A stretch of DNA of 44,915 nt, from positions 1 through 44,915 of the forward strand of contig DYGD01000005.1 in NCBI GenBank assembly GCA_020724885.1, in the 5' to 3' direction. Of this stretch, positions 7,165-41,169 are shown piece after piece (positions within the stretch are counted from its first letter, which is position 1; the number at the start of each line of letters is the position of its first letter). The notes under the pieces are model-generated. The model was given only the letters and a program-made list of their open reading frames with translations. It made no database searches and was not told where the DNA came from. A program made the translations under genes and the position numbers. This stretch comes from Candidatus Paceibacter sp. (lineage in GTDB: Bacteria; Patescibacteriota; Minisyncoccia; Phycocordibacterales; BOKC01).

Positions 7165-9747
7165 TTATTTTCTATTTAATATCTTTCTCAAATACTCTCC
7201 GGTGTAGGAATTTTTTGCGCTGGCAATTTGTTCCGGTGTGCCTCGGGCAACGACTTCTCCGCCCATATCTCCCCCCTCTGGTCCCATATCAACGATATAA
7301 TCGGCGCATTTTATAAAATCCATATTATGTTCAATAACCACTACGCTATTGCCTCTGTCAACCAATTTCTGGAGAATCTCAATTAGTTTTTTAACATCTT
7401 CATAATGAAGCCCGACAGTCGGTTCGTCCAAAAGATAAACTGTTTTGTGAAGATCGGGCCGAAACAGCTCGGAAGATATTTTTACCCTTTGAGCTTCGCC
7501 ACCAGACAAAGTCGTTGCTGATTGACCCAACTCAAGATAACTTAGCCCCACTTCCTCCATTGTTTTGAGGCGATCATAAATTGCCGGTATATCTTTGAAA
7601 AATTCTAAGGCCTCCTCTATGGTCATTTTCAAAATTTCGTGGATATTTTTTTTCTTATATTTGACTTCTAATGTTTCTTTCATAAAACGTTTACCGTTGC
7701 AGACATCACAGGTGACATAGACCGTTGGCAAGAACTGCATTTCCACTTCAATCGTCCCATTTCCTTGGCAGGCCTCGCAACGGCCACCCCGAACGTTAAA
7801 AGAAAATCGGCTCGGTTTCCAACCGCGAATTCTGGCCTCACTTGTCTCGGCAAAAAGTTCTCGGATGAAAGTCCAGGCGCCAGTATATGTTGCTGGATTT
7901 GATCGGGGAGTCCGACCGATCGGCGATTGGTCTATCAATATTGCTCGATTTAAATATTCTGTGCCAGCGAACGATTTGCAATTAAATATTTCGGCGCTAC
8001 GGTATCGGCGGTCAAATCTTGCTTGCAAATTACGATGCAGGATTTCATAAAGCAAAGACGACTTACCGGAGCCGGACAGGCCAGTAATTACTGAAAACTT
8101 CCCCAAAGGGATGTCAACGTCCAAATTTTTGATATTAAAGACCTTGCCACCGCGAATCATTATTCTTCCTTTGTCTCCGTCACGTCTTTTTTCTGGTAAA
8201 GGTATTGTTTTTTCGCCTCTTAGGTAATCCAAGGTCAGAGAACCGCTTTGGTTTTTCTGGGCGGTTAAAAGTTTTTCCAAATAATCAGACACGATTACTT
8301 CTCCGCCGTGCACTCCTGCTCCCGGTCCGATGTCAACAATATAATCAGATGAATAAATCGTATCTTCGTCATGCTCAACAATAATTATGGTGTTGCCCAG
8401 ATCGCGAAGGTCGGTCAGTGTCTTTATCAAAAGGTTATTGTCGTGGGCGTGCAGGCCGATTGTCGGCTCGTCTAAAACATAAAGCGCGCCGACTAAGCCC
8501 GAGCCAAGCTGGGAAGCCAGGCGGATCCTCTGTGATTCGCCTCCGGAAAGAGTGCCGGCTTTTCTGTCCAAGGTCAGATATTCAATTCCGACATTCACCA
8601 TAAATTTCAAACGGGAAGCAATTTCTTTTATGGCGGCCTCGCAAATTTCCCGCTCTTTTTTGCTTAATTTTATTTTTTGAAAAAATTCATCGGCCTCGGC
8701 AATGGAAAAGGCGCCAATTTCCACAATATTTTTGCCTGAAACCAGGACATTCAGAGCTTCTTTCCGGAGACGGGAGCCGTCGCAACTCGGACACGGCTCG
8801 GTGCCCCAATAATGTTTTGTGCCCAGTCCATTACATTCTGTGCAAGCGCCGTAAGGCGAATTGAAGGAAAATAAGCGTGGTTCTATTTCTGGATAAGAGT
8901 AGCCGTCAGTTGGACAAGAAAACTTTGTTGACCATACAAATTCTTCCCACCCCCCATTTTTTGACCCGAAGACGACCTTGACTAAGCCGTCTGCCTCTTC
9001 TAATGCTTTCTCCAGCCCTTCGCCAAGACGTTGTGGCCACTCTTTTTTTGCGTTGGTAAGTTTAGAAATCTCTATCTCATCAATCAATACATCAATATTG
9101 TGTTTTTTATTTTTAGATAGAATAATCTGTTCTCTTAAGCTCTTTGACTGGCCATCAACGAGAACCTTTGAGTAGCCCTTGCCTAGGAGATCATATAGGA
9201 GCTGGTAATATTCGCCCTTACGTCCCCTGATAATCGGAGCGAATATTTCCAATCTGCCCGTCGCGCCGGCCTTCCCTGCCTTTTCTTGGATTTTTTTCAG
9301 AACGATCTTCTTTATTTCTTCTCGGGACATCTTTTCAATCTCTTGGCCGCAAATAAGACAATGCGGCCGTCCGATTCGGGCGAAAAGAACGCGCAAATAA
9401 TCATAGATTTCAGTCATTGTAGCAACCGTTGAGCGAGGATTGGCCGATCTGAATTTCTGGTCTATTGAAATTGCTGGCGACAGGCCGGTTATCTCGTCTA
9501 TGTCGGGCTTTGGCATAATTCTCAAAAATTGTCTGGCGTAGGGAGAAAGTGATTCTATGTAGCGACGCTGTCCTTCGGCAAAAATAGTGTCAAAGGCCAA
9601 GGACGACTTGCCGGAGCCGGACAGGCCGGTGATTACGATAATTTTATTCCTCGGCATTTCTACCGATATATTTTTCAGGTTGTGAGTTCTGGCGCCTTTT
9701 ATTGAAATTTTGTCGCTCATGTTTTTGCTTCTCCGGATTTTAAACAA
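7165..9747 (-). CDS. uvrA: Excinuclease ABC subunit A (likely start at MSDKISIKG)
   Basis: [72 protein letters not shown], CxxC zinc module CEACQGNG...CDVCNGKR. Confidence 0.97.
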
Positions 9748-10621: not shown

Positions 10622-12088
10622 TTATTTTACAACTTTTTTAGCAATTGGCACAACAGGGATTTCCAATATGAATTTGGTCCCCTTGCCCATATGACTTTCA
10701 AAACGGACACTGCCACCGTGCTGTTCTATCAAGCTTTTTACGATAAACAGGCCAAGGCCGGTTCCGCCCGGCTCCAATCTGACCGCATTGGATGCTCTGA
10801 AAAATTTTCTGAATAGATTTGCTTGCTCTTCTTTTGGAATTCCGATACCCTCATCTTCTACGCTGGCTAAGACAATGTTGGGGTCGTCTTTTTTACGGCC
10901 TAGGAAAATCTGAATTTTCCCGCCCTTTTTAGAATATTTAACCGCGTTTTCAACTAAATTTTGGAATACCGCTCTGATCTTTTGCGGGTCAACCTTTACT
11001 TTTGGTAAATCCTTTTCGGTTTGGATTTGAATCTTGATATTTTTGGTTTCCACCGAAGAATGAAAATCAGGCAAAATGTTGCCGAGTAGATCTGTTAAGC
11101 TGATTTCTACCGGAGAAAAACCACCGGCGCCGGCGTCAATCTGTTCGGAACCAAGCATATCATGGATTAGACCGATGATTCTCTCATTGCTTTCGTACGC
11201 TTTCATGATCAACGCTCTTTGGTCGCTATTCAATTCGCCTTCGTTGCCTCTAAGTAATGTGTCTAGTGTCCACTTTATGGCAGACAGCGGAGTTCTTAAT
11301 TGGTGCGCCACCGTTGAAACAAATTCTCTTTTTTCTTGATCTAGACGCGCCACCTCTTCTGTTTCTTTTCTAAGTTCCAAATCTTGCCTTATCAATCGGC
11401 GGGCAAACTTGTTGTACTCTTCGTTCAAAAGTCGTAATTTTTCGGCTTGGAGTTCAGCTTGTCGGCGACCCTCAATAACCTGGTACTCTCTCTTTCTCAA
11501 GGCCGACGACAAATATCCCGAAAGCGACCCGACAATGAAATACACAGCCGAAATGACAATTGAACTAGAAAGCATCACCAAAAGATCTTCGTATTCAACG
11601 ATTGCTTTTCCTGAATAGCCATAGATTTTTTGGGCGATACCAAAATAACCAAGGAAGACCATACCGTTTACCAGAACCGCTGAAACAAAAGCGACGAAAA
11701 GTGATCCTATGGGATTGAAAAGTATTATGGAAGATACAATCGGAATGAAGAAAAAGATTGGCGCGATACTTTCAACTCCGCCTGAAAAGTGGAAGATGAA
11801 AAGAAAGAATACCAATTCTGCCAAAATCTGACCGAGACCAAGGAAATTCACTTCTCTGGTTTTGTTTTGTAACTCAAGCTGGCTGGCGGTCAGCCAAAAA
11901 ACCGCGTTGGTCAGTATAAAGATTGAAAACAGCAAGAGCATCACCGGCAAAGGAAAAGAAGCGGCGCCCAATGGGTCCAACTTGGAAAGAAGACCCATAA
12001 CGAAAATCGCTGGGGCATAAAACCAGCGGGCCGAAATAAGCCATTTATTGGCTTCAAATTTATTACTGTGTATCAGTCGAAGCGCCAT
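10622..12088 (-). CDS. Membrane histidine kinase
   Basis: FVSTVAHQLRTPLSAIKW H-box; NLVENAVKYS N-box; DEGIGIP; GTGLGLFIVKSL. Confidence 0.95.
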   Translation of the reverse strand: MALRLIHSNKFEANKWLISARWFYAPAIFVMGLLSKLDPLGAASFPLPVMLLLFSIFILTNAVFWLTASQLELQNKTREVNFLGLGQILAELVFFLFIFHFSGGVESIAPIFFFIPIVSSIILFNPIGSLFVAFVSAVLVNGMVFLGYFGIAQKIYGYSGKAIVEYEDLLVMLSSSIVISAVYFIVGSLSGYLSSALRKREYQVIEGRRQAELQAEKLRLLNEEYNKFARRLIRQDLELRKETEEVARLDQEKREFVSTVAHQLRTPLSAIKWTLDTLLRGNEGELNSDQRALIMKAYESNERIIGLIHDMLGSEQIDAGAGGFSPVEISLTDLLGNILPDFHSSVETKNIKIQIQTEKDLPKVKVDPQKIRAVFQNLVENAVKYSKKGGKIQIFLGRKKDDPNIVLASVEDEGIGIPKEEQANLFRKFFRASNAVRLEPGGTGLGLFIVKSLIEQHGGSVRFESHMGKGTKFILEIPVVPIAKKVVK

Positions 12089-12270
12089 GATTGACTTTCA
12101 TTATATCAGAGTGTCATTAAATTTTTGTAAAGATTTGTTGGGGATACCTTTGTTAATTATCAATTATCAATCAATTATTAAATTTTCTAATTTTCAATTT
12201 TTGATAATTGGAGTTTGAAAATTCATTGAAAATTGGTCATTGAAAATTGAAAATTTTTTGTCACTTTTTT

Positions 12271-14283
12271 CTACTTCTTTAATGCTAAAAGTTCGTCCCG
12301 GATTATCGCCGCGGTTTCAAAATCCAGCGCCTTAACCGCCTCGTTCATTTGCTTTTCTTTTTCTTTCAAGAGTTTCTTCAGGCCACCCTTGTGGATTTCT
12401 TTATCAAGCTCAAGGAGAGAGTTGGCTGTTTTTTGCTGGCGAGTCCTAATTTCTTCGGTTATGTCCTTGATATTTTTAACGATGGTTTTAGGTGTGATAT
12501 TGTGTTTTTTATTATAATCTAACTGAATTTCGCGCCGTCGGTTGGTTTCCTCTATGGCCCGATTCATTGAGTCGGTCATGTTATCGGCATACAGAGTCAC
12601 TCGACCTCGGACATTTCTAGCCGCTCGGCCAATAATTTGGATCAAAGATGTCTCGCTTCGCAGGAAACCCTCTTTGTCGGCGTCTAAAATTCCAATGAGT
12701 TCTACTTCTGGCAAGTCCAATCCTTCCCGTAAGAGATTAACTCCGACCAGGAAATCAAAAGTTCCTTTTCTAAAATTAGTTAAAATCTCTATCCGATCCA
12801 ATGTCTTTATATCGCTGTGAATATACTCGGCTTTGATTCCTTTTTCTTTCAAAAAATCACTTAAATCCTCGGCCATTTTTTTAGTCAGAGCGGTGGCAAT
12901 AACCCGACCGCCACCTTTGACGACCTTTTCCCCTTCGCTTATCAAATCTTGGATTTGTCCCGGATAACCTTCTTTCTGATTTATCGGCTTGATGAAAATT
13001 TCTGGGTCAATAAGGCCGGTCGGTCGGATTATTTGCTCAACGGTCTGCTTGCTATTTTGTCTTTCAAATTCAGCCGGAGTGGCCGAAGTAAATATAATTT
13101 GTCCGGTTTTTTCTTTGAATTCTTCAAAATTAAGGGGGCGATTGTCGCGCGCCGAAGGCAGACGAAATCCATGCTCTATCAAAACTTTTTTCCGAGCGGC
13201 ATCCCCGGCGTACATTCCGGAGAGTTGAGGCACCGTCACGTGACTTTCATCAATTACGGTCAAAAAGCCGTCTAGTCCTCTTTTGTGGGAAAAATAATCA
13301 AGTAGAGTGAAGGGTGGTTCGCCTGGTTCTCGGCCGTCAAAATGACGGGAATAATTTTCAATTCCATTGCAATAGCCGACCTCTTTAATCAAAGCCAGAT
13401 CGTAATTAGTCCGCCGTTTCAATCGCTCGGCTTCTAAAGGTCTGCCTTGTTTCTCCAGTTTAGCCAGCTGTTTTTTTAATTCCATCTTGATACTGGTAAT
13501 AGCTCTTTTTTGCTCCGCTTCGGCGGTTATAAAATGTTTGGTCGGAAAAACCAAAACTGATTTCAGGTGTTTCTTTATTGTTCTTGAGATCGGGTCGATG
13601 GCCAACAATTCTTTGATTTTCTCTCCCGCAACTTCTATTCTATAAACTATTTTTTCGTTGGTCGGCATTATTTCAATTGCCCCGCCGACTGCTCGAAAAC
13701 TTCCTGGGGTTAAATCACTATTAGTTCTTTTGAAATGAATTAAGACAAGCCGCTCCAAGAGATCTCTCCGGCCTAATTTTTGATCGACAGAAAGATCAAG
13801 GTAAGATTCTTGATAATTTTCCGGATTGCCGAGGCCGTAAATACAAGAAACCGAGGCGACAATAATCACATCGTCTCGGGTCAAGAGGGCTTGGGTGGAA
13901 GCGTGGCGTAAGCGGTCAATTTCTTCATTTATCATTGCTTCTTTTTCAATGTATGTGTCGGTAACCGGCATATAGGCCTCCGGCTGATAGAAGTCGTAAT
14001 AGGAAACAAAATAGTGCACCGCATTGTCGGGAAAAAAATCGCGGTATTCCTGCGCCAATTGCGCCGCTAGGGTCTTATTGTGGGCAATGACCAAAGTCGG
14101 CTTTTGGAGCTTTTCAATGACATTGGCTATCGTGAAGGTCTTCCCTGTTCCGGTTGCACCTAAGAGGGTCTGATAGTTAAGACCATTCTTTAATCCCTCA
14201 GCCAGTTCTTTTATTGCTTCCGGCTGGTCGCCTGCCGGAGTAAACTTGCTTTGTAATTTAAATAACCTCTTGGACATAAGCAA
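12271..14283 (-). CDS. uvrB: Excinuclease ABC subunit B
   Basis: FTPAGDQPEAIKELAEGL, LLGATGTGKTFT, YYDFYQPEAYMP, C-terminal UVR domain. Confidence 0.97.
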   Translation of the reverse strand: MLMSKRLFKLQSKFTPAGDQPEAIKELAEGLKNGLNYQTLLGATGTGKTFTIANVIEKLQKPTLVIAHNKTLAAQLAQEYRDFFPDNAVHYFVSYYDFYQPEAYMPVTDTYIEKEAMINEEIDRLRHASTQALLTRDDVIIVASVSCIYGLGNPENYQESYLDLSVDQKLGRRDLLERLVLIHFKRTNSDLTPGSFRAVGGAIEIMPTNEKIVYRIEVAGEKIKELLAIDPISRTIKKHLKSVLVFPTKHFITAEAEQKRAITSIKMELKKQLAKLEKQGRPLEAERLKRRTNYDLALIKEVGYCNGIENYSRHFDGREPGEPPFTLLDYFSHKRGLDGFLTVIDESHVTVPQLSGMYAGDAARKKVLIEHGFRLPSARDNRPLNFEEFKEKTGQIIFTSATPAEFERQNSKQTVEQIIRPTGLIDPEIFIKPINQKEGYPGQIQDLISEGEKVVKGGGRVIATALTKKMAEDLSDFLKEKGIKAEYIHSDIKTLDRIEILTNFRKGTFDFLVGVNLLREGLDLPEVELIGILDADKEGFLRSETSLIQIIGRAARNVRGRVTLYADNMTDSMNRAIEETNRRREIQLDYNKKHNITPKTIVKNIKDITEEIRTRQQKTANSLLELDKEIHKGGLKKLLKEKEKQMNEAVKALDFETAAIIRDELLALKK

Positions 14284-20473: not shown

Positions 20474-20866
20474 TCAGTGCCGAGCAACGGCTGTCTGAGG
20501 CGTGCGGACCTTGTCGCTTCTCCTCGCCTTGCCCCACACCTTGGCAGGTGGTAGCGCCTCGGCCCTCGTCACACGGACGTAGTAGTATCCGATGGGCTTT
20601 GCTATCTCCTGGATGATCTCCAGTGTCCAGCATGCGGACGCTTCGGAAGTCGGGATGAGAAGCGGGTCTCTGCAGATGAAGTGGACCTTCTCCCGGGAGC
20701 CGTCGAGGGCGAGAGTCAGGCACGCGGGCTTATCCGGACCGCTTCTCTCCCAAGTACCGACGACCCGGACCTCCCGACCGGGCACGATTTTCTTGATGTC
20801 TCCAGCCCTCTCGATTTTCGGAGGTTGGGGTTTGTCTCCCTGCCCCACATTTTTCTCTTCCGCCAC
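20474..20866 (-). CDS. GC-rich hypothetical protein
   Basis: ORF (GTG start) with RBS-like gaaaggtggg and promoter-like TTGCAA-16-TAGAAT upstream. Confidence 0.6.
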   Translation of the reverse strand: MAEEKNVGQGDKPQPPKIERAGDIKKIVPGREVRVVGTWERSGPDKPACLTLALDGSREKVHFICRDPLLIPTSEASACWTLEIIQEIAKPIGYYYVRVTRAEALPPAKVWGKARRSDKVRTPQTAVARH

Positions 20867-21057: not shown

Positions 21058-21624
21058 CTAGGCAGAAACCTCCTTGTCCGTTCTCGCCACCGCCCTGGCC
21101 TTCCGGGCCTCACGCCGACGGTTGCTTTCCGTCAGGTGTTCCCAGATGATCTCGGACGCTCTGGCGTAGACCTTGTTGTCCCTCCCCCACTCCTCCAACT
21201 TCTTGGCCGCCTCCTTCAGGGCATCCGCCCCAAGAAAGAGGACCAGGGTGTCATGACCGCGATGGTTCTGCCTATACTCGGCCAAGCCGAGCTGGCAGAG
21301 GTCGGAGGCGCTGAGACTCGCCTCGAACATCGCTCTCCTGATCTGACTCACGGCGTGAGCCAGATGGGTCAGCCGAATCATCCTGGCCACAGCGAAGGCG
21401 CCAGGAAGGTGGGGACTAGGATCCCCCTTGGTGACCCTGACCCCGATCTCCTCAACCGAGGAAGTGGCGAGATTGAAGAAAACATTCCTCCTCACCAAAT
21501 CAGACGGGAGCAAAGCCATCAGATCGCTGAGCTTCTTCAAATCATCCGGCTGCTCCCGGGCCGGGTCCCGACTGGTAATCCGCTTCGCCCCGGCCACCGC
21601 CTCATCAATCGTAGCAGTATTCAT
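21058..21624 (-). CDS. GC-rich hypothetical protein
   Basis: 188-aa ORF with downstream terminator hairpin at 21008-21038. Confidence 0.65.
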   Translation of the reverse strand: MNTATIDEAVAGAKRITSRDPAREQPDDLKKLSDLMALLPSDLVRRNVFFNLATSSVEEIGVRVTKGDPSPHLPGAFAVARMIRLTHLAHAVSQIRRAMFEASLSASDLCQLGLAEYRQNHRGHDTLVLFLGADALKEAAKKLEEWGRDNKVYARASEIIWEHLTESNRRREARKARAVARTDKEVSA

Positions 21625-29944: not shown

Positions 29945-30010
29945 CTTACTTATTTGATTTTTTCCACAACTTTACTTTTCTTAAGGGCAATTGATATAAT
30001 AGCAATAATT

Positions 30011-30262
30011 ATGCCTAAGAAAAAGATAACAATTGAAGATTTGGCCGCAATGACACAAAGAGGATTTGCCGGTGTAGATGAAAAATTTACAGGTACTGAT
30101 AATAAAATTGAGGGTTTAAGAACCGAAATGAACACTCGGTTTAACGAAATAAACACTCGGTTTGACCGAATTGAAAATCTACTGCTCCGCGCTCACGAAA
30201 ACCGTTTGGATAGAATTGAAGACGATATCAGGGTTCTAAAAACCTTAGCCGGCAAAAGATAA
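30011..30262 (+). CDS. Small coiled-coil protein (TIEDLAxMTQ family)
   Basis: MPKKKITIEDLAAMTQRGFAGVDEKF...; paralog of 34879-35154. Confidence 0.75.
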   Translation: MPKKKITIEDLAAMTQRGFAGVDEKFTGTDNKIEGLRTEMNTRFNEINTRFDRIENLLLRAHENRLDRIEDDIRVLKTLAGKR

Positions 30263-30287
30263 ACCTACTTCACAAATTTTTCCCGAC

Positions 30288-30330
30288 AAAAGAAAAGCCC
30301 TGCTCCGGTGCGTGTCGGAACGGGGCTAGA
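30288..30330 (-). terminator. Intrinsic terminator of the membrane-protein gene
   Basis: Minus strand: agccccgttccg acacgcac cggagcagggct followed by tttcttttgt. Confidence 0.75.
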
Positions 30331-30832
30331 GAAAGATCCGCCTGAAGAACTCAATCACTGTAACCCAGCCGACAATCCAGTACAGATTGGCGACGAGAGT
30401 GGCGGCGAGGAAGATTTTCCAATCCTGGCGCGACAAGCCACTGAATTGGTAGTTCCCGCCTCGCAGGCACAAGGTGACAGTGACAGGATCATCAAAGCAG
30501 AGGGCGAAAAAAGCCAGAACTCGAACCCGCCTCTTGTTCAGGTTGGTGCTGATGTAGCGTTTGACTCGGTTCTGCGAGTTAGGCCACTCTTCCATAACCT
30601 TCTTGGCGGCTTCAATTCCGAGCAAGTCGCACTTAGCCCAGTCGTAGATTTTTATGGTCAAGAAGCTGTAGAGTAATGAGAGGCCGGTCAACAATAGACC
30701 GCCCCACCAATGCCCGAGCGCGACGAGTACGAATGGGTAGAGAAGATAGTCAAACGGCCAATTGATCAGCCGCTTGAGCAAGAGCCCTGTTCCAATCGTC
30801 GCACTTTTCTTTACCACTTTCTTGGCGCTCAA
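30326..30832 (-). CDS. Integral membrane hypothetical protein (GC-rich)
   Basis: Several hydrophobic segments in a 168-aa ORF with an RBS-like upstream sequence. Confidence 0.65.
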   Translation of the reverse strand: MSAKKVVKKSATIGTGLLLKRLINWPFDYLLYPFVLVALGHWWGGLLLTGLSLLYSFLTIKIYDWAKCDLLGIEAAKKVMEEWPNSQNRVKRYISTNLNKRRVRVLAFFALCFDDPVTVTLCLRGGNYQFSGLSRQDWKIFLAATLVANLYWIVGWVTVIEFFRRIFL

Positions 30833-30996
30833 ACGTTACCCTCCTTTCTTTCGACTTTTTTTCAATCGGCACAATTACCGATTTCTTTTTTCAGTATAGC
30901 ACATTGAAGCCATTTTTGTCAAGAACAGATTGGGACTTTATTCTTATCAACAATTCCCTATTAAAATTTATCAGAAAAAGTTATATCATTTAGAAA

Positions 30997-31359
30997 ATGA
31001 ATAAATCCGATAAAATCACTTTATCTATTATCATTCTGTCGGTTTTTGTGGTTATTGCATCAACGTCTTATCTGTTTTTATGGAAAAAGGACTTCACTTT
31101 TGTTCTTGAAGCGTATTGTGATCCTGAATATGAAATTTGCCACTACCGAGATTGTTCAAATCCAGACGATTGCCCGCCCAATCAGTTGGAATATTACAGA
31201 GTGTTTGAAGTGCCGGCAACAGATTTTCCAAAATGTTCAGACAATTCTTGCCTTCTGGAATGTGCTATGGAGACAATATCTTGCGCTGAAATTATTTGCG
31301 AAGAAGATGATGAAAACACTTGCAATATTCCGGCTGACACAGAATTAAAACCCCAGTGA
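30997..31359 (+). CDS. Single-TM, cysteine-rich hypothetical protein
   Basis: N-terminal TM then multiple Cys (YCDPEYEICHYRDCSNPDDCPP...CSDNSCLLECAMETISCAEIIC). Confidence 0.65.
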   Translation: MNKSDKITLSIIILSVFVVIASTSYLFLWKKDFTFVLEAYCDPEYEICHYRDCSNPDDCPPNQLEYYRVFEVPATDFPKCSDNSCLLECAMETISCAEIICEEDDENTCNIPADTELKPQ

Positions 31360-31408
31360 TAAGAAACCTGAAAACAGATGAGAAACGGCAGTAGGACGAG
31401 ACGAAACT

Positions 31409-31879
31409 TTATTTTATATTCTTTTCTGCTATTTCTTTGTATTTTTTGAGAGTTTCCAGCCCCATTTCTTTCCTAAGTTTGTCAACTTGTTTTCTATTTT
31501 TAATAGGTAGAAATTTTATCCTATCATTTAGTATTTTGTATTGCGTTCCGTATATCTGTCTTTTCCTTTCGCGGATTCTTATTTTATCAATTAAATACGC
31601 TTCATCCTTCTTGTCTAGGCAATATCCTTTTGTCTTTAGTTCGTTATAAATTTTCTTTATCTTTCTGATCGGCTGGTGAAGAGTTAAAACGACAGCCGAT
31701 TGGTACTCTTTTGTTCTAACATTTCCTTTTTTGCAAGGAAAACCTTTCTCTTTTAGTATGCGGAGAAATTTATCAGAAATAGTTTTGTTTCTGATTCTTA
31801 ATTCTTTTGCGGAAATTTTATTCTGTTTATAAAGTCGGATATTTTTTTGGTCTTCTTTGAAAAGGCTGTGTATATCCAT
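31409..31879 (-). CDS. DUF6624-like protein
   Basis: LIDKIRIRERKRQIYGTQYK...LRKEMGLETLKKY; paralog of 32802-33335. Confidence 0.65.
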   Translation of the reverse strand: MDIHSLFKEDQKNIRLYKQNKISAKELRIRNKTISDKFLRILKEKGFPCKKGNVRTKEYQSAVVLTLHQPIRKIKKIYNELKTKGYCLDKKDEAYLIDKIRIRERKRQIYGTQYKILNDRIKFLPIKNRKQVDKLRKEMGLETLKKYKEIAEKNIK

Positions 31880-31913
31880 ATTTTTTTGTTTTATTGTAGT
31901 TCGTCTTCGAATA

Positions 31914-32044
31914 CCCCGCGCTTTAGCGCGGGGATGAGAAGGTGAGTTGTGTAAAGAGTCGGCGGAGCCGACACTTCTGCAACAAAGTTTTCCCCGATGT
32001 CTCGTCCTATCCCCGCGGTTTTACCGCGTGGATAGGACGAGACA
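31914..32044. repeat. Cluster of three palindromes
   Basis: ccccgcgctttagcgcgggg (31914-31933), gtcggcggagccgac (31958-31972), 47-bp near-palindrome (31998-32044). Confidence 0.85.
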
Positions 32045-32134
32045 AAACTTTATTCTAATTTTGTAGATTAGAATTAATGTTATAGTACCATGTATTAATG
32101 GGTTATCTGGCCAAAATAATTAGAAGGTATTTTT

Positions 32135-32809
32135 ATGGTGAGAGGTAAAAAAATTGAAAAAAATATTCTGCAGGAAGAATTAGGAAAATATGATTTGATC
32201 TGGATCGGTGAAATCCATGGGGTCAAGGAAAACTACAGCGCCTACAAGACAATTCTGCCTAATCTTGCAGAAAATGGTTTTAGAAATATCTTGTGGGAAA
32301 TGAGAGCTGATTTTTCAGAGAAAAGCAAATATACCGAAGACGGCAGAATAAACCAGTTTTCTATTGAATTTTTGAAGTGGATCGAAAAACAAATTAAAAC
32401 CGGAAAAATTGACGGGCTAACTTTTTTCGGAAATAAGACACCTAGAAAAAACGGCGCCGAATCATTTGGTTACGAGGAAGAAATGGCCGATGAGGTGATC
32501 GAAATAGTCGGGAATACCAAAAGTGTTATTATCACTGGCAATTATCATATGATGGACCTGACGAGAAAAGACGAGAGAGAAAAACCTGCCGCTAATTTTG
32601 TGAAAGAAAAAAGTGAGCTTAAAATCCTGCGAATGTATTTAAAATATTCCAAGGGTTCATTCTATAATTTCGGCCACAAGAAACTGACAGAACGAGCCAC
32701 TGACAAAGAAATCGATCTGAAATTCGGCACAATCACTCGACTAAATGATTTGTTCTTTTTCCACATGGGTCAAGTGCGTGCCGTATTTAAAAACCCAACC
32801 ACTAGGTAG
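32135..32809 (+). CDS. ChaN/Tiki-erythromycin-esterase-like superfamily protein
   Basis: DLIWIGEIHGVKENYSAY...ITGNYHMMDLTRK; moderate family-level resemblance. Confidence 0.5.
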   Translation: MVRGKKIEKNILQEELGKYDLIWIGEIHGVKENYSAYKTILPNLAENGFRNILWEMRADFSEKSKYTEDGRINQFSIEFLKWIEKQIKTGKIDGLTFFGNKTPRKNGAESFGYEEEMADEVIEIVGNTKSVIITGNYHMMDLTRKDEREKPAANFVKEKSELKILRMYLKYSKGSFYNFGHKKLTERATDKEIDLKFGTITRLNDLFFFHMGQVRAVFKNPTTR

Positions 32810-33335
32810 CAATCTTGTTTTTCTTCATAAGGCTTTTATACTTTTTTTCTATTTTTATTTTTGTTGTTTCAATTTTTTCCAACCCCATCTCTTTTCTAAG
32901 ATTGTTTAGTTTCCTTGCATTTTTAACTGGATGCAGGTGTATCTTTCCATTTTTTATTAAAAATTGTGTTCCGTATATTTGTTTTTTCTTTTCATTTATT
33001 AATACTCTGTCTATAAGATATATCAGATTTTTTCTGCTTGCTTGATTGCAATTAACTTCTTTTTCTAAAAGTTTGAGAGCTTTTTTTTGTAGATTAATAT
33101 TCGTATCAGCGTGTTGAACAAGTAGCCAAAATTTATCAGAGGCTCTCTTTCCAACTGTTTTATATTTTGGCCAACCGTATTCTTTAAGAACGGATTTTAC
33201 AAAATCTATACTTTTTTTATCTTGGGCTAAAACTGATTTAAAATTCTCTTTTTTAGGATCCTTGATCCATTTTCTACGTTTTTCTTGATCTGCCTTTGCA
33301 AATTTTTCTACCTTCTGTTTTAGACTTTGATTCAT
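32802..33335 (-). CDS. DUF6624-like protein
   Basis: FWLLVQHADTNINLQKKALKLLEKEV...LIDRVLINEKKKQIYGTQFLIKNGKIHLHPV...LRKEMGLEKI. Confidence 0.7.
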   Translation of the reverse strand: MNQSLKQKVEKFAKADQEKRRKWIKDPKKENFKSVLAQDKKSIDFVKSVLKEYGWPKYKTVGKRASDKFWLLVQHADTNINLQKKALKLLEKEVNCNQASRKNLIYLIDRVLINEKKKQIYGTQFLIKNGKIHLHPVKNARKLNNLRKEMGLEKIETTKIKIEKKYKSLMKKNKIAT

Positions 33336-33369
33336 ATATAATTAATTTTAACTAAAAATTAAAGAAAAA

Positions 33370-33387
33370 GAGAGGTGTGAACCTCTC
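33370..33387 (-). terminator. Intrinsic terminator of the ATP-grasp gene
   Basis: Minus strand: gagaggttcacacctctc followed by tttttcttt. Confidence 0.75.
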
Positions 33388-33397
33388 TGAATCATAG

Positions 33398-34330
33398 TCA
33401 CATAGAGACAAGGAGTCGTGCGATAGATTCTCCTATTGGCAGGCCAGCTTGCTCTTCTACAAACCGCCACTGGCCGTTAGGATTGATTTCGAGAAAGTAA
33501 TAATCTCCGTTCTCATCCTGAATCATGTCGATGCAGCCGAAACGTAAGCCGAGTGTCTTTACTATTTCCACACAGCGATTTTGCAGATCCAGAGGTAGCT
33601 CTGCTGGAGTAGCACTGACCAGACCTCTTCTCCAGTCTACAGGCGAGTTACTCTGAATAGCAGCCGTGTACACCTCGTTGCCAACTACTGTTATCCTATA
33701 CTCTTGCTTTCCGGGAATGAGCTTCTGTAGGATAACCGGTGATGATTTGATGCGAGAGATCTCGGCCATCAGTTGATCAGTCATCTGATTCGTAAAAACA
33801 ACTTTCTTAGGAAAGGGGCTGAACGCCAATGCCTTGATGACCATTTGCTTCTCGCACCGTTGCCAGAATTTAGTTGCTCGATCTGGATTAGTAGTGATCA
33901 GAGTGTCCGGAATTTTGAAACCCACATTTCGAGCAATCTTGAGTTGGTATGGCTTGTTCTCCGCTTCAAGTGATCTGTAGTAATCATTCAACCAGATATC
34001 CTGACGCAGAAAAGAAGTCAGTGATCTCCACGTTGCTAGAAACTGTCTGTAGATGAAAATTGCGTCTTGATGAGGTTCATATTCTCTGAGTGCTTTTGGA
34101 AGCATTGGCTTGTAGAACCAAGCCTTATTAATAGCAGAAAGATCGAAGCTTAGCTGTTCCACGTCAAGAAAAACTTCACTAATCTCGTCGGTGCACACGA
34201 AACTTAACCCTTCACCCGCCAGACACTTGTCTGATCGAAATATTACAACCTCTTCGGAACTGATTTCTCTTATTGTGTTCGTGACCGGCTCAACTAGATC
34301 AACGCTGTTGGAAATGATAAGTATCATCAT
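33398..34330 (-). CDS. ATP-grasp ligase of the MvdC/MvdD (graspetide, omega-ester RiPP maturase) type
   Basis: ARNVGFKIPDTLITTNPDRA, QKLIPGKQEYRITVVGNEVYTAAI, LRFGCIDMIQDENGDYYFLEINPNGQWRFVEEQAGLPIGESIARLL; start at ATG 34330 with aaggag SD, shorter than the listed ORF. Confidence 0.85.
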   Translation of the reverse strand: MMILIISNSVDLVEPVTNTIREISSEEVVIFRSDKCLAGEGLSFVCTDEISEVFLDVEQLSFDLSAINKAWFYKPMLPKALREYEPHQDAIFIYRQFLATWRSLTSFLRQDIWLNDYYRSLEAENKPYQLKIARNVGFKIPDTLITTNPDRATKFWQRCEKQMVIKALAFSPFPKKVVFTNQMTDQLMAEISRIKSSPVILQKLIPGKQEYRITVVGNEVYTAAIQSNSPVDWRRGLVSATPAELPLDLQNRCVEIVKTLGLRFGCIDMIQDENGDYYFLEINPNGQWRFVEEQAGLPIGESIARLLVSM

Positions 34331-34359
34331 CCCGCTCCTTATTTTTCTGGACGAAGAGT

Positions 34360-34388
34360 GGGGCGATCTACCTCTCATAGACCGCCCC
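34360..34388 (-). promoter_or_regulatory. Intercistronic hairpin between precursor and ligase genes
   Basis: ggggcgatcta (34360-34370) / tagaccgcccc (34378-34388), 7-nt loop. Confidence 0.75.
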
Positions 34389-34395
34389 GAACGAT

Positions 34396-34542
34396 TCAGT
34401 CGAGTCCGGCCGTGTCCGGCTCGTCATGCGTACCCCGAGAGGTCTGTGCGAAAGTGACCTGCCGACCGGAACTGTCGTAGATAATCTCGACCTCCTCGGC
34501 GAAATCCAGAATCAAAGGATTCATGTCCGTAGACCCTTCCAT
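34396..34542 (-). CDS. Putative graspetide precursor peptide, 48 aa (not in the supplied ORF track)
   Basis: MEGSTDMNPLILDFAEEVEIIYDSSGRQVTFAQTSRGTHDEPDTAGLD; SD-like ggaaggaaa upstream; Thr/Ser plus Asp/Glu-rich C-terminus; immediately upstream of the ATP-grasp gene. Confidence 0.8.
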   Translation of the reverse strand: MEGSTDMNPLILDFAEEVEIIYDSSGRQVTFAQTSRGTHDEPDTAGLD

Positions 34543-34632
34543 AGACAATTTCCTTCCGAGACTTTTGTCTCAAAGAACTTCCTTCAACCTCTCCGCGAAC
34601 ACTCGCAGAAGTAAAGGTTGAATCTGGTATCC

Positions 34633-34665
34633 ATATTAGCGGAGGGGGGGGGTGTTTTTTGTCAA
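34633..34665 (-). promoter_or_regulatory. Putative promoter of the graspetide operon with C9 tract in the spacer
   Basis: TTGACA (34665-34660) and TAATAT (34638-34633) on the minus strand, 21-nt spacer; G9 at 34644-34652 on the plus strand. Confidence 0.55.
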
Positions 34666-34811
34666 CTCCCAATAAGCGAAAGTTATCCACAATCGCTATT
34701 TTCCCCTTATTTTAGGGCGCTTTTTTAACCCGCTTTTTTATTGAGACGAGTTTTGTCAGGGAGAGGGTACAAGGTAAAGGTTGACTTATAACAAACAACT
34801 TATGACAAATT

Positions 34812-34857
34812 TAAAAAAACATTCTCACATTCTTAAGAATGTGAGAATGTTTTTTTA
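34812..34857. terminator. 46-bp perfect palindrome, bidirectional terminator
   Basis: taaaaaaacattctcacattcttaagaatgtgagaatgttttttta. Confidence 0.9.
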
Positions 34858-34878
34858 TAAGAAATGAGAGAAAATATT

Positions 34879-35154
34879 TTAAATTTTAGCTCTAACTAAT
34901 TTAGTTTCTATTTGGAGAATTCTGTCGCGTAAAAGCTCTATTTCGCGATCGTGTCGAGCAATGAGTATATTTTCAATTCTGTCTAGCCTTTCTTCAACCT
35001 TGTTAAACCTTTCATCTACTTGATTAAATCTTTCGTCTACTTCATTGAATCTTTCGTCTACTTCGTTAAATCTCTTATATACTTCACTAAACCCATTCTG
35101 GGTCATAATTGCCAGATCTTCTATTGTCGTTTCTTTTTTCTTTCCCTTTTTCAT
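34879..35154 (-). CDS. Coiled-coil protein with 7-aa (21-nt) tandem repeats, TIEDLAxMTQ family
   Basis: MKKGKKKETTIEDLAIMTQNGFSEVYKRFNEVDERFNEVDERFNQVDERFNKVEERLDRIENIL. Confidence 0.8.
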   Translation of the reverse strand: MKKGKKKETTIEDLAIMTQNGFSEVYKRFNEVDERFNEVDERFNQVDERFNKVEERLDRIENILIARHDREIELLRDRILQIETKLVRAKI

Positions 35155-35163
35155 AATATTTAA

Positions 35164-35268
35164 TTATACCCCTTTCGCAGAAACCGGCAACTCCACCACA
35201 AACTCACTTCCCTTTCCTTCTCCCTCTGATTCTACCCGAACGGTTCCGCCGTGCGCTTCAATGACGTT
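35164..35268 (-). pseudogene. Histidine kinase 3'-tail fragment (tail 3)
   Basis: Minus-strand translation VIEAHGGTVRVESEGEGKGSEFVVELPVSAKGV*; matches the C-terminus of the kinase at 38894-40537. Confidence 0.85.
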
Positions 35269-35290
35269 TCAACGCATACACTTCTTCGTC

Positions 35291-35503
35291 TTAAATTTTC
35301 AGAAACACTTCCGGGTCAATTCCTGTTTGTTTTATGATAGCGTGGAGGGTTCCTCTTTTAACGGTTCTATGAAATGGAATGGTAACATATTTTCCATTCT
35401 TGGAATAAATTCTATGACTTCCTTTTTGTTTCTCAAAAACAAAACCCAAAGCAACAAGTTTTCGTTCTACTTGTCGGGGTCTTAACTCGGGCAGTTTCGG
35501 CAT
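35291..35503 (-). CDS. hicA: HicA-family toxin
   Basis: RQVERKLVALGFVFEKQKGSHRIYSKNGKYVTIPFHRTVKRGTLHAIIKQTGI. Confidence 0.9.
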   Translation of the reverse strand: MPKLPELRPRQVERKLVALGFVFEKQKGSHRIYSKNGKYVTIPFHRTVKRGTLHAIIKQTGIDPEVFLKI

Positions 35504-35509
35504 AAGTAT

Positions 35510-35794
35510 TTATATTGCGAGTTGAATCGGAGCAACTATGACTCTAGAAGTATCTTTTTTGAGTTCATCTTTATCTTTTTTGGAAATTACTTCAAGATAA
35601 AGTTCGGCCGCTTCTTGAATATTTTTCATCGCCTCCTCAAAATTTTTACCTTGAGAAATACATCCGGGAAGAGCGGGAATAAAAGCAGTATACCAGCGGC
35701 TCTTGGAATCTTGTTCAAAAACAGCTGGATAGTTCCTTACGATATTCAATTTTCTTGTTTTTGTTTCCACACCCACATTATACACTTTCTTCAT
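35510..35794 (-). CDS. hicB: HicB-family antitoxin
   Basis: YPAVFEQDSKSRWYTAFIPALPGCISQGKNFEEAMKNIQEAAELYLE; directly upstream of hicA. Confidence 0.88.
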   Translation of the reverse strand: MKKVYNVGVETKTRKLNIVRNYPAVFEQDSKSRWYTAFIPALPGCISQGKNFEEAMKNIQEAAELYLEVISKKDKDELKKDTSRVIVAPIQLAI

Positions 35795-35823
35795 TTTACC
35801 GACAACTCCACCACAAACTCACT
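35791..35823 (-). pseudogene. Histidine kinase 3'-tail stub
   Basis: SEFVVELSVK* with TGA overlapping the hicB ATG (ATGA). Confidence 0.7.
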
Positions 35824-35829
35824 ACTTTA

Positions 35830-35863
35830 CCCCCACACCAATCTTTTAAGATTGGTGTGGGGG
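35830..35863. repeat. Perfect 16-bp-arm palindrome between two kinase tails
   Basis: cccccacaccaatctt-tt-aagattggtgtggggg. Confidence 0.92.
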
Positions 35864-35953
35864 CTTTGCCGGTAATTTAACAATAAATTCTGAACCCTTA
35901 CCCTGACCTTCCGATTCTACCCGAACGGTTCCGTTATGCGCTTCAATGACGTT
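35846..35953 (-). pseudogene. Histidine kinase 3'-tail fragment (tail 2)
   Basis: Minus-strand translation NVIEAHNGTVRVESEGQGKGSEFIVKLPAKPPHQS*. Confidence 0.85.
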
Positions 35954-37139
35954 TTTGGTTTGGAGGAAAAAACTTTTTCAAAAACATCTTTATTTCTAGC
36001 TTTTTCGATTCTTCAGCGTAAACACTGGGGTATAAATCAAAGTCAGAATCTTCTGAAAGTTCGGCCCAGTTATCTTCAAATAATTTATTGACCCCACGCA
36101 TAATCGACAAACCCAAATTATCATAAGCATCTTCAATACTGTGGGCAAGATAATAGATGATGTTTCTTTGAAATGTCGAAAATTTGTCTCGTTCACTATA
36201 ATTAGAAAGACTAAACTTTGGATAACATGCATCAAGTATTAGTTTTGGGATCTCCCAAAGTGGCATAAGAAGTAGAGTATCCCCGAACTTTCTCACAGGA
36301 AACGAGAGAGGACTTTGACCATTCATAATGGAGAACAACAATTCTGCAAGTAAATCCTCTCTGTTGAAACCTAATATATATTCTTTGGTTTCGTATCTTT
36401 TACATAATGCCCTGCCCACCAAAGAAATAAGATATGTTCCAAAAAAATGATCCGTGTTGTCTCCAAATGTTTTTAAGAATTCTTGATAGCAACACAAAAG
36501 TTCACCTTTCATGCTTAAGAGAGATTCAATTCTGCTCGAGTCATATATTTCATGTTTTTCCCCAATTTTATTGCATAATTCTGAAGCTCGATTAGCCGCG
36601 GTCTGTGGCCAAAGTGGATCAAAAACAATAGTATAAAAAATAAATCTTTTGTTGGGCTTACTTAATTTCTTTAGACTTTCGGCAAGTGTATTACTATCAC
36701 CACCCCCAGATATTCCCACAAGAACGGTTTCTTGTTTCGAGTATGTTTCCATAAAATCAGCGATTTTATTCTTTACCGTTCCCTTCGCTTGGTCAGAATT
36801 AACCTCAAAAATTGTTTGTGAACAGCCATCATGTCCTATCTCGATTGATGAATATGTGGTAGTGGGATTTTCTGTTTTCTTAATATATGTCTTTTGTGGT
36901 AATACTTGCCGTAAGTCAGTATTTCGAACACATTGTAAGATAATTGTGGATCCTAATGGGGCATGATCAATTCGTGAATGAAGCGGAACTGGTGTTATTT
37001 CACCTTTAGATTCCAGGTAACCTTGAAATAAATTAGGAGGTAATCGCTTGGTACGTAATAATTCTTCAAGCGTCAAATTACTCATGGCTTCTAAATAAAA
37101 GTCTTGAGCGGCGGTCCTTAGAATAATGTTTTTTTGCAT
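35943..37139 (-). CDS. PP-loop ATPase-superfamily protein with possible ThiS/MoaD-like N-terminal domain
   Basis: VLVGISGGGDSNTLAESL (PP-loop SGGxDS), GFNREDLLAELLFSI; stop codon lies in the kinase tail-2 sequence. Confidence 0.72.
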   Translation of the reverse strand: MQKNIILRTAAQDFYLEAMSNLTLEELLRTKRLPPNLFQGYLESKGEITPVPLHSRIDHAPLGSTIILQCVRNTDLRQVLPQKTYIKKTENPTTTYSSIEIGHDGCSQTIFEVNSDQAKGTVKNKIADFMETYSKQETVLVGISGGGDSNTLAESLKKLSKPNKRFIFYTIVFDPLWPQTAANRASELCNKIGEKHEIYDSSRIESLLSMKGELLCCYQEFLKTFGDNTDHFFGTYLISLVGRALCKRYETKEYILGFNREDLLAELLFSIMNGQSPLSFPVRKFGDTLLLMPLWEIPKLILDACYPKFSLSNYSERDKFSTFQRNIIYYLAHSIEDAYDNLGLSIMRGVNKLFEDNWAELSEDSDFDLYPSVYAEESKKLEIKMFLKKFFPPNQKRH

Positions 37140-37142
37140 TTT

Positions 37143-37343
37143 TTAAAAAAACGCAGCGAGGGCGGAAGTACAAATTACATGTTCAATTTTTCTGTCAGTA
37201 AGAGAATTTAGCCCTTTTTCGGTTAATGAAATAAACAAACCATCAATCTTTGAGTCTGATGAAATAAGTATTTGATTTGTTTGTTCATACTTTGAAAGTG
37301 TCTTATCTGAAGAAAGAATTGGTTCATAAATTATTGTTTGCAT
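37143..37343 (-). CDS. 66-aa hypothetical small ORF in the PheRS-like/PP-loop operon
   Basis: MQTIIYEPILSSDKTL...HVICTSALAAFF; stop 1-3 nt from the next start. Confidence 0.5.
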   Translation of the reverse strand: MQTIIYEPILSSDKTLSKYEQTNQILISSDSKIDGLFISLTEKGLNSLTDRKIEHVICTSALAAFF

Positions 37344-37554
37344 GTTTTTATTTAATTACAAAATCTAATGAAAAATCGACCTCTTTAAAAGTATACCGCC
37401 AATGTGCCTAAAAACAACAACTTATCCACACTTCGCAATAAATGACTCTGTCAAAACACTTAAGGTTTTTATTATATTGATGTGCGGATACTTACCCCCT
37501 CGCTTAAGCCGAATGAGTATCTAAAAAGTGGAGGGGATTAATTTTAAAATATTT

Positions 37555-38775
37555 TTATGGCTTATAACCACCAGCGCTACCCAGATGAATCTTTGGATAT
37601 GCCAACGAATATAAACTAGCCGCCTCATCCTTAGTTAGGGTCTTATCGGGGTGTCGTAAAACGATCCTTACTAATACATTATCCTGATCTTTCTGAGCAC
37701 CAAGCCGTTGCCGTGCGATCTTTGGCAAATTTTCGTACGGAGTCCGTTCAAGGATTTTGACCTCCTCTAATAAATCACTTTGATCTCCAAAGGCGTTACG
37801 GATTGCCTCACAAATGTCCTCTTCAGTGTCATTTCTTCCTACGCAATAAGACATATCGCGAGAAATAGGAGGTTTATCAGAAACACTCTTAAAATTATCC
37901 AGATTAGACATTTGCATCATTACTCTGGGATCAGTCGATCTAATAAAACGGATGTCCGGAAGATTTTTCCGTGCCATAATTAACCTTTCTAGTCCCATAC
38001 CCGAGGCCAATCCGCAATATTTTTGCGGGTCAAGTCCTGAATTTTTAAGAACGCCGGGATGAATCAGCCCCGCTTCCAAGATCTCAATTTTTTTACCTTC
38101 AACCTCCGCATAAACTTCTACACCATTTACAGTGTATGGGTGTTTTGCCTTTAAGACGATCATTTTGGCCCCGGGGCACGCAACATCAAAAATTGTCCGC
38201 ACTAATTTTAACAAATCTTCCCGACCAACCTTGCCGTACTTTTTGACATCTTGCAGTGTCCAAACATCCACCTGATGAAACACATCAAGATGCCTCGGGT
38301 CTATGACATCCCTACGGTACACTAAGCCAGGCAACACAAAAGTTATTTGACCGATTTTATTTTTATCGAGCCGTTCAAGTGTTGATGGGATAAGGGCTGA
38401 TGTGTGTGTGCGTAATATATTTTCTTCATCAACATACCGAGTATATGTTGAAGATCGACCTGGATTACCTGGAGAAAACAATAGTTTATCAAAATTATCT
38501 TTAGCCGGGACAATAGAATTACCCCTAACGATCTCTATATTTGGGAAATTATTTTCTTTCAACTTATCAACTATGCTGTCGTAGATTCTACCGACAACAC
38601 CTCTTCCACCACCCCCCCCCTCTGGTTCTGTCAAGTCAGTGACTTTTAGTAATTGTTCAATTGTCTTTCTTGGAGAAACATCAAACTTAAGTTGCATTGG
38701 CAACTTAGGGTTTTCTTCCAAAACTTTAATACGCGCAATATTTAGTGCGGTACCTTTTTTATAATTATCAACCAT
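37555..38775 (-). CDS. Single-chain phenylalanyl-tRNA synthetase-like protein with FDX-ACB domain
   Basis: Motif 2 LVYRRDVIDPRHLDVFHQVDVW, motif 3 GLASGMGLERLIM, C-terminal SRDMSYCVGRNDTEEDICEAIRNAFGD...RIVLRHPDKTLTKDEA. Confidence 0.82.
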   Translation of the reverse strand: MVDNYKKGTALNIARIKVLEENPKLPMQLKFDVSPRKTIEQLLKVTDLTEPEGGGGGRGVVGRIYDSIVDKLKENNFPNIEIVRGNSIVPAKDNFDKLLFSPGNPGRSSTYTRYVDEENILRTHTSALIPSTLERLDKNKIGQITFVLPGLVYRRDVIDPRHLDVFHQVDVWTLQDVKKYGKVGREDLLKLVRTIFDVACPGAKMIVLKAKHPYTVNGVEVYAEVEGKKIEILEAGLIHPGVLKNSGLDPQKYCGLASGMGLERLIMARKNLPDIRFIRSTDPRVMMQMSNLDNFKSVSDKPPISRDMSYCVGRNDTEEDICEAIRNAFGDQSDLLEEVKILERTPYENLPKIARQRLGAQKDQDNVLVRIVLRHPDKTLTKDEAASLYSLAYPKIHLGSAGGYKP

Positions 38776-40680: not shown

Positions 40681-41169
40681 TTAGTTTTCTTTTCCATTTT
40701 CTTTGTAAAATAACAATTTTAACCCAGTCGGAATAAATGGGCAGTACTTTTTTATTATCCCTTTAGGTAAAAATTGTATTGATCGTATTTTTTTTCTACA
40801 TTTTTTAGAACCGCAATTACACTTCATCTCCCATCGTGGGTCAGCTTCTACGGAAGAATAATCAATAGTTAACTCCTCATTAGGTTTAATATCACGCATC
40901 GCATATAACCTTATCTTTCCTCTTATGCCAGCATTGGGCTCGCAAGAATGATTAAGAAATTTAAAGGGCGGAACGGGGTCTATCCACCAATACTTCTTGA
41001 AACCAACCCAATCCGGGTTAGCAAACACATCATTAATATCACCATTCACTTTCCTTTTGACATTACCTTTTATATTCGAAATAAATTTACCTTTTGTTAT
41101 CCCAACCTTGGTAAATAAACCTTTTTTGTGTATACTACTATTCTTTATAAATAGATCTTTCTCAGACAT
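40681..41169 (-). CDS. SET-domain lysine methyltransferase-like protein
   Basis: GLFTKVGITKGKFI, FLNHSCEPNAGI, NEELTIDYS, post-SET CNCGSKKCRKKI. Confidence 0.88.
   Translation of the reverse strand: MSEKDLFIKNSSIHKKGLFTKVGITKGKFISNIKGNVKRKVNGDINDVFANPDWVGFKKYWWIDPVPPFKFLNHSCEPNAGIRGKIRLYAMRDIKPNEELTIDYSSVEADPRWEMKCNCGSKKCRKKIRSIQFLPKGIIKKYCPFIPTGLKLLFYKENGKEN

Follow-up and report, generated by a model that had tools for sequence, protein, structure and literature searches.

Graspetide ligases bind the leader of a precursor peptide and phosphorylate an acidic side chain, which is then attacked by a Thr or Ser hydroxyl. Graspetides of CPR bacteria have already been reported, in two ligase branches, by Makarova et al. 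2022 (PMC8939145), and the parts of that paper drawn on here describe the leader motif Phhx(1,2)h, the branch 1 core TxxxTx(6-10)Dx(1-4)D, Tiki/TraB proteins that accompany branch 2, and a functionally unassigned protein named "cluster 23", in which His and Arg residues are conserved and which accompanies the CPR graspetides. In the sections of Carter et al. 2026 (PMC13097080) drawn on here, DUF6624 is highly frequent in graspetide groups 18, 20, 23 and 42, the last of which has many members from candidate phyla but no product described there. We consider it likely that the "cluster 23" protein is DUF6624. The graspetides of CPR are known solely from genome scans, and the organisms that make them are mostly uncultured.

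The window, i.e. the whole stretch of 44,915 nucleotides that was analysed, belongs, as contig C14, to a genome of 592 kb with a completeness of 93% and a contamination of 0.3%; a scan of genome contigs returned a single distant match. With the CPR loci, as presented in those parts of PMC8939145, the window shares the CPR host, an ATP-grasp gene with a small precursor, and the Phhx(1,2)h leader, and with groups 18, 20, 23 and 42, as presented in those sections of PMC13097080, a DUF6624 gene that adjoins the graspetide synthetase. The features of the locus are as follows.

34633-34665, minus strand: candidate promoter, weak, possibly length-variable (TTGACA, 21 nt with a C9 run, TAATAT)
34396-34542, minus strand: predicted 48-aa precursor of a graspetide, with leader MEGSTDMNPLILDFAEEVEIIYDSSGRQVTFAQ and predicted core TSRGTHDEPDTAGLD (T34-D48); P9, I11, L12, T34, S/T35, G37 and D43 kept across 12 precursors
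33398-34330, minus strand: ATP-grasp ligase of predicted graspetide type, 310 aa; NCBIfam MvdC/SAV_5884/MvdD with E of at most 5.5e-48; PDB matches to graspetide ligases
33369-33388, minus strand: terminator-like hairpin, between the ligase and DUF6624 genes
32802-33335, minus strand: DUF6624 protein, 177 aa, directly 3' of the ligase; PF20329, 51.6 bits
32135-32809, plus strand: Tiki/ChaN-like putative metallohydrolase, GEIHG...GNYH; weak PF04187 match; convergent with the DUF6624 gene at 32802-33335
31409-31879, minus strand: second DUF6624 protein, 156 aa; PF20329, 43.6 bits; 52% identity to L058:4080-4547

Judged by its sequence, the ATP-grasp gene, whose frame is intact and open throughout, encodes a graspetide-type ligase. 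The protein matches the NCBIfam models MvdC (182.2 bits), SAV_5884 (181.5 bits) and MvdD (163.8 bits) over the full length, with E-values of 1e-48 to 1e-53 for the microviridin ligase models, whereas the RimK model reaches 53.7 bits and covers the C-terminal part only. The same RiPP maturase models are matched by all 15 aligned relatives of the ligase. Its best matches in the PDB are graspetide ligases (5ig8, 4.5e-34; 7m4s, AMdnB, 6.3e-34; 7mgv, CdnC, 1.7e-27), and the motifs ExRIT, DWR (as DWRR) and the C-terminal FLEINPNGQW are retained. The protein stays under the curated cut-off of every RiPP ATP-grasp model (MvdC 425, MvdD 475, SAV_5884 350 bits), and because of this we assign it to a separate subfamily; an earlier, sequence-only reading, which called the ligase MvdC/MvdD-like, was thus right about the graspetide type, while the enzyme is a relative of MvdC/MvdD and not their orthologue. 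The microviridin ligases MvdC/MvdD and MdnB/MdnC belong to the same ATP-grasp family, and the microviridin leader element PFFARFL is comparable to that of the window precursor, but the window has one ligase instead of two, its scores fall far below the equivalog cut-offs, and the TxKYPSD microviridin core is absent from the precursor sequence. The actinobacterial tgmA/tgmB pair (SAV_5884, TIGR04187) resembles the window in the full-length ligase match (181 bits) and in the position of the precursor directly upstream, but the window ligase lies below the 350-bit cut-off, no methyltransferase tgmC is linked to it, and its precursor is unlike tgmA.

The 48-aa ORF proposed as precursor in the sequence-only reading (34542-34396, minus strand) is present exactly as described there, including the SD-like sequence, GGAAGGA, immediately upstream of the ATG at 34542. 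The frame can be extended by two codons upstream to a TTG; the ATG aligns with the start used in the two closest relatives. The length of the ORF alone is not significant, because the 8.5 kb around it (30000-38500) overlap with 52 ORFs that have 40 aa or more, and NCBIfam and Pfam searches gave no family match for it. We regard it as a real precursor because it is conserved in 11 further loci. An alternative 88-aa ORF that overlaps it (34424-34690) was rejected, having no family match and no counterpart seen in the relatives.

Relatives were sought with the ligase as query in sampled genomes of the order, the class and the phylum. The closest are L093 (genome G976; 55% identity) and L094 (G900; 54%), which together with the window form what we call the window trio, and eight further ligases follow at 35-39% identity (E below 1e-55). 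A short co-directional ORF lies upstream of the ligase in 11/11 of these closest loci (window included), its end 16-104 nt from the ligase frame as taken, and a twelfth precursor-ligase pair is found on the phage contig L113. All twelve ORFs have a leader of the form P[FL][IV][LM] and a core of the form T-[ST]-x-G-x5-D-x2/4-D; in a scan of ligase frames at greater distance, a T[ST]xG-type core occurs in 0/42, although a few of these frames are incomplete or stand at the end of a contig. In a ligase tree built without the precursors and with RimK as a single long-branched outgroup, the 12 ligases form a single clade (SH-aLRT 98), within which the window trio is recovered with SH-aLRT 99. The recurrence of the precursor ORF in homologous loci, on which the sequence-only reading had made its case depend, is thus seen in 12/12 of the clade. 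The sister group of this clade comprises L105, L108, L109 and L110; the precursor of L105 and L109 differs (...VPFGAKYLKK...NTGTGTSQPDADHD). Sequence comparison indicates that the precursor is under purifying selection, strongest in the core: against L093 and L094 there are 36 comparable codons with 17-19 synonymous and 9-10 replacement differences, and in the core 13/15 residues are unchanged and 2/15 changed. We take this locus to be, very probably, one for the biosynthesis of a graspetide (omega-ester RiPP). The genome of L093 carries two divergently oriented graspetide ligases of different branches, about 2.3 kb apart (8335-9261, minus strand, and 11518-12510, plus strand).

Four residues, P9, T34, G37 and D43, do not vary across the 12 precursors; position 35 holds either Ser or Thr, and I11 and L12 of the leader are among the positions kept. 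The second acid is D46 in 9/9 precursors outside the window trio; in the trio D46 is absent (3/3) and D48 is kept. The Thr/Ser-donor and Asp/Glu-acceptor composition that the sequence-only reading had noticed in the window core is conserved in the clade, where the only donors kept throughout are T34 and S/T35 and the only acceptors are D43 with either D46 (three residues on) or D48 (five on, in the window trio). With two donors and two acceptors kept clade-wide, the product is most likely, as far as the sequences indicate, a two-ring omega-ester peptide. In the proposed pathway the ribosome would produce the 48-aa precursor, the leader of which (Phhx(1,2)h, here P9-L-I-LD-F14) would be bound by the ligase via P9-L-I-L-D-F14; the ligase would then convert Asp side chains of the core to acyl phosphates and link them to Thr/Ser hydroxyls, presumably forming macrolactones. 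The predicted product would be bicyclic (T34/S35 to D43/D48), lighter by 36 Da and probably hairpin-like, with the order and pairing of the links likewise putative. A graspetide with other rings, having either at least three links (T34, S35 and T38 with D40, E41, D43 and D48) or a single one, is possible, if somewhat doubtful: T38, D40 and E41 are also kept within the window trio and could react, but T38 is replaced by Y in two precursors of the 12 and by H in one, so that it is not a required donor, and D40 and E41 vary across the clade, in which conservation in every member is confined to two donors and two acceptors. The branch 1 core, in the form in which it is given in the parts of PMC8939145 drawn on here, fits the window precursor only via T30, which is replaced by V in L093 and L094. 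With its two close relatives and nine more members, the locus has a well-defined start of the precursor, leader motif and set of reactive residues, and it is therefore ready for heterologous expression.

The sequence-only reading described the locus as a complete minimal and self-contained unit. This is too narrow, since the DUF6624 genes and the Tiki/ChaN-like ORF adjoin it and belong to its neighbourhood. Both DUF6624 proteins score above the gathering cut-off of PF20329 (51.6 and 43.6 bits, cut-off 27); they are encoded by the only two DUF6624 genes of this genome, both at the graspetide locus. The gene at 32802-33335 has the same position in L093 and L094, and DUF6624 is present in 28/49 fetched ligase loci. 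In the order sample (n=297 genomes) the ligase occurs in 20 genomes, DUF6624 in 18 and both in 10 (Fisher p 4.9e-9), with the two genes adjacent in 9/10 of the co-occurring cases. The invariant residues H75, D109, Q119, G122 and T123 suggest that DUF6624 is an enzyme; a search of the PDB with its profile found nothing, and a single-sequence AlphaFold model was unusable (pLDDT 44). We propose that DUF6624 is a conserved partner of the graspetide genes, which may act as a tailoring or maturation enzyme or in self-protection. The second DUF6624 protein has its closest relative (52% identity) in the DUF6624 of L058, from a genome of the same genus, where the adjoining graspetide ligase belongs to another branch than the window ligase; it may therefore be a remnant of a different graspetide locus, and no ligase of its own accompanies it here.

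The Tiki/ChaN-like ORF matches PF04187 (Tiki/ChaN superfamily) with 16.6 bits (E 0.008), under the gathering cut-off of 27.7, and its relative L050:5677-6384 is above it (30.9 bits). Six other loci, that of L050 among them, have a homologue next to the ligase. We see in the Tiki-like hydrolase a candidate for the leader peptidase. T34 is preceded in most members by two small residues (GG, AG, SA, AP). This pattern points to cleavage at that place, which we would put just before T34; in the window the residues preceding the predicted core are A-Q, not a GG-type site. That the functional unit is the precursor and ligase, with DUF6624 and the Tiki-like protein as bystanders, seems to us rather unlikely. 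The terminator parts the ligase from DUF6624, the Tiki-like gene is found in only 7/49 loci, locus L096 has no detectable DUF6624, and some published groups, in the sections of PMC13097080 used here, consist of ligase and precursor alone; on the other side stand the linkage of DUF6624 in 10/11 of the closest loci and its co-occurrence with the ligase (p of about 5e-9). As to export, no transporter is linked to the locus and the genome has one ABC exporter gene, located elsewhere. No C39 peptidase was detected in the genome, and the secreted or interbacterial peptide which the sequence-only reading took to be implied is not supported.

The boundaries that had been assigned to the unit fared differently. 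An intrinsic-terminator-like hairpin does follow the ligase (33388-33369, minus strand), but the unit's own promoter was not recovered: the region just upstream of the precursor yielded none with a spacing of 16-18 nt, and in the best candidate TTGACA (34665-34660) and TAATAT (34638-34633) are 21 nt apart, with a C9 run inside the spacer. This spacing, as assembled, exceeds the length of a good promoter, and we offer a length-variable promoter simply as an idea for this reason. The 592-kb genome has five C9/G9 tracts, of which this is one; in L038 the matching place is taken by a (GA)n run. A structured 5' leader was considered (z -1.4, no Rfam match). Horizontal transfer deduced from base composition was considered and rejected (ligase 44.7% GC vs a window mean of 40.7%); the GC3 of the ligase is 46.6 vs 44.6-44.7 for uvrA/uvrB, and the precursor alone stands out (56.5%).

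A similar ligase is found in 26/384, 16/380 and 20/297 sampled genomes, i.e. in 4-7%, and the expectation that such a locus would be unusual in CPR does not hold, given also the earlier reports (PMC8939145, in the parts cited above). Graspetides in CPR being already known, what this analysis adds is a family of precursors together with the clade it defines, its synteny with DUF6624 and a member borne by a phage. The phage-borne copy and the DUF6624 linkage offer two handles on the role of the peptide and on the partner protein it requires. A more far-reaching scenario would comprise an undescribed group of Patescibacteria graspetides exchanged with phages, DUF6624 as a new RiPP enzyme class or a self-protection function, expression switched by the C9 tract, and a peptide serving host attachment or the exclusion of rival episymbionts or phages; we regard it as speculative and improbable.

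On the phage contig (L113:1454-2606, and L128, IMGVR_UViG_3300029811_000049) a ligase that falls in the same clade lies next to the precursor MRIMKGIMPFILLFMVEYEGATCATTCGHFNSIDSHDYT, and a short ORF occupies the position of DUF6624. By reading and PHROGs, the contig also encodes tail-like and very large virion-type proteins, an M23 lysin, ParB, HNH and methyltransferases. In Leptospira phage LE1 (KF114876.1; L135:2318-3286) a graspetide-like ATP-grasp protein bears the annotation RimK-like, and its gene is immediately preceded by a 37-aa ORF.

It is very improbable that the window protein is a RimK-type amino-acid ligase (e.g. a peptide- or protein-tailing enzyme) next to an unrelated small protein or chance ORF: Pfam does give the RimK domain alone (37.9 bits) and similar phage genes are annotated as RimK-like, but, contrary to a RimK-like placement, which the sequence-only reading had named as refuting it, the RiPP maturase models score 164-182 bits against 54 for RimK, at best more than three times as much (182 vs 54), their match spans the full length, beyond the ATP domain, and the short ORF is kept in sequence and position in 12 loci.

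Some other genes of the window deserve mention. A 398-aa protein (35943-37139, minus strand), preceded by a 66-aa ORF, resembles a PP-loop ATPase weakly in its central part, while its N-terminal part has no assignment; it was considered as a graspetide partner and dropped, as a counterpart occurs in no related locus. Two ORFs without a Pfam match (20474-20866 and 21058-21624, both minus strand) have a residue composition that looks unlike that of their neighbours. A HicA/HicB toxin-antitoxin pair lies at 35291-35794 (minus strand), and 40681-41169 (minus strand) encodes a SET-domain protein, here in a bacterial genome.
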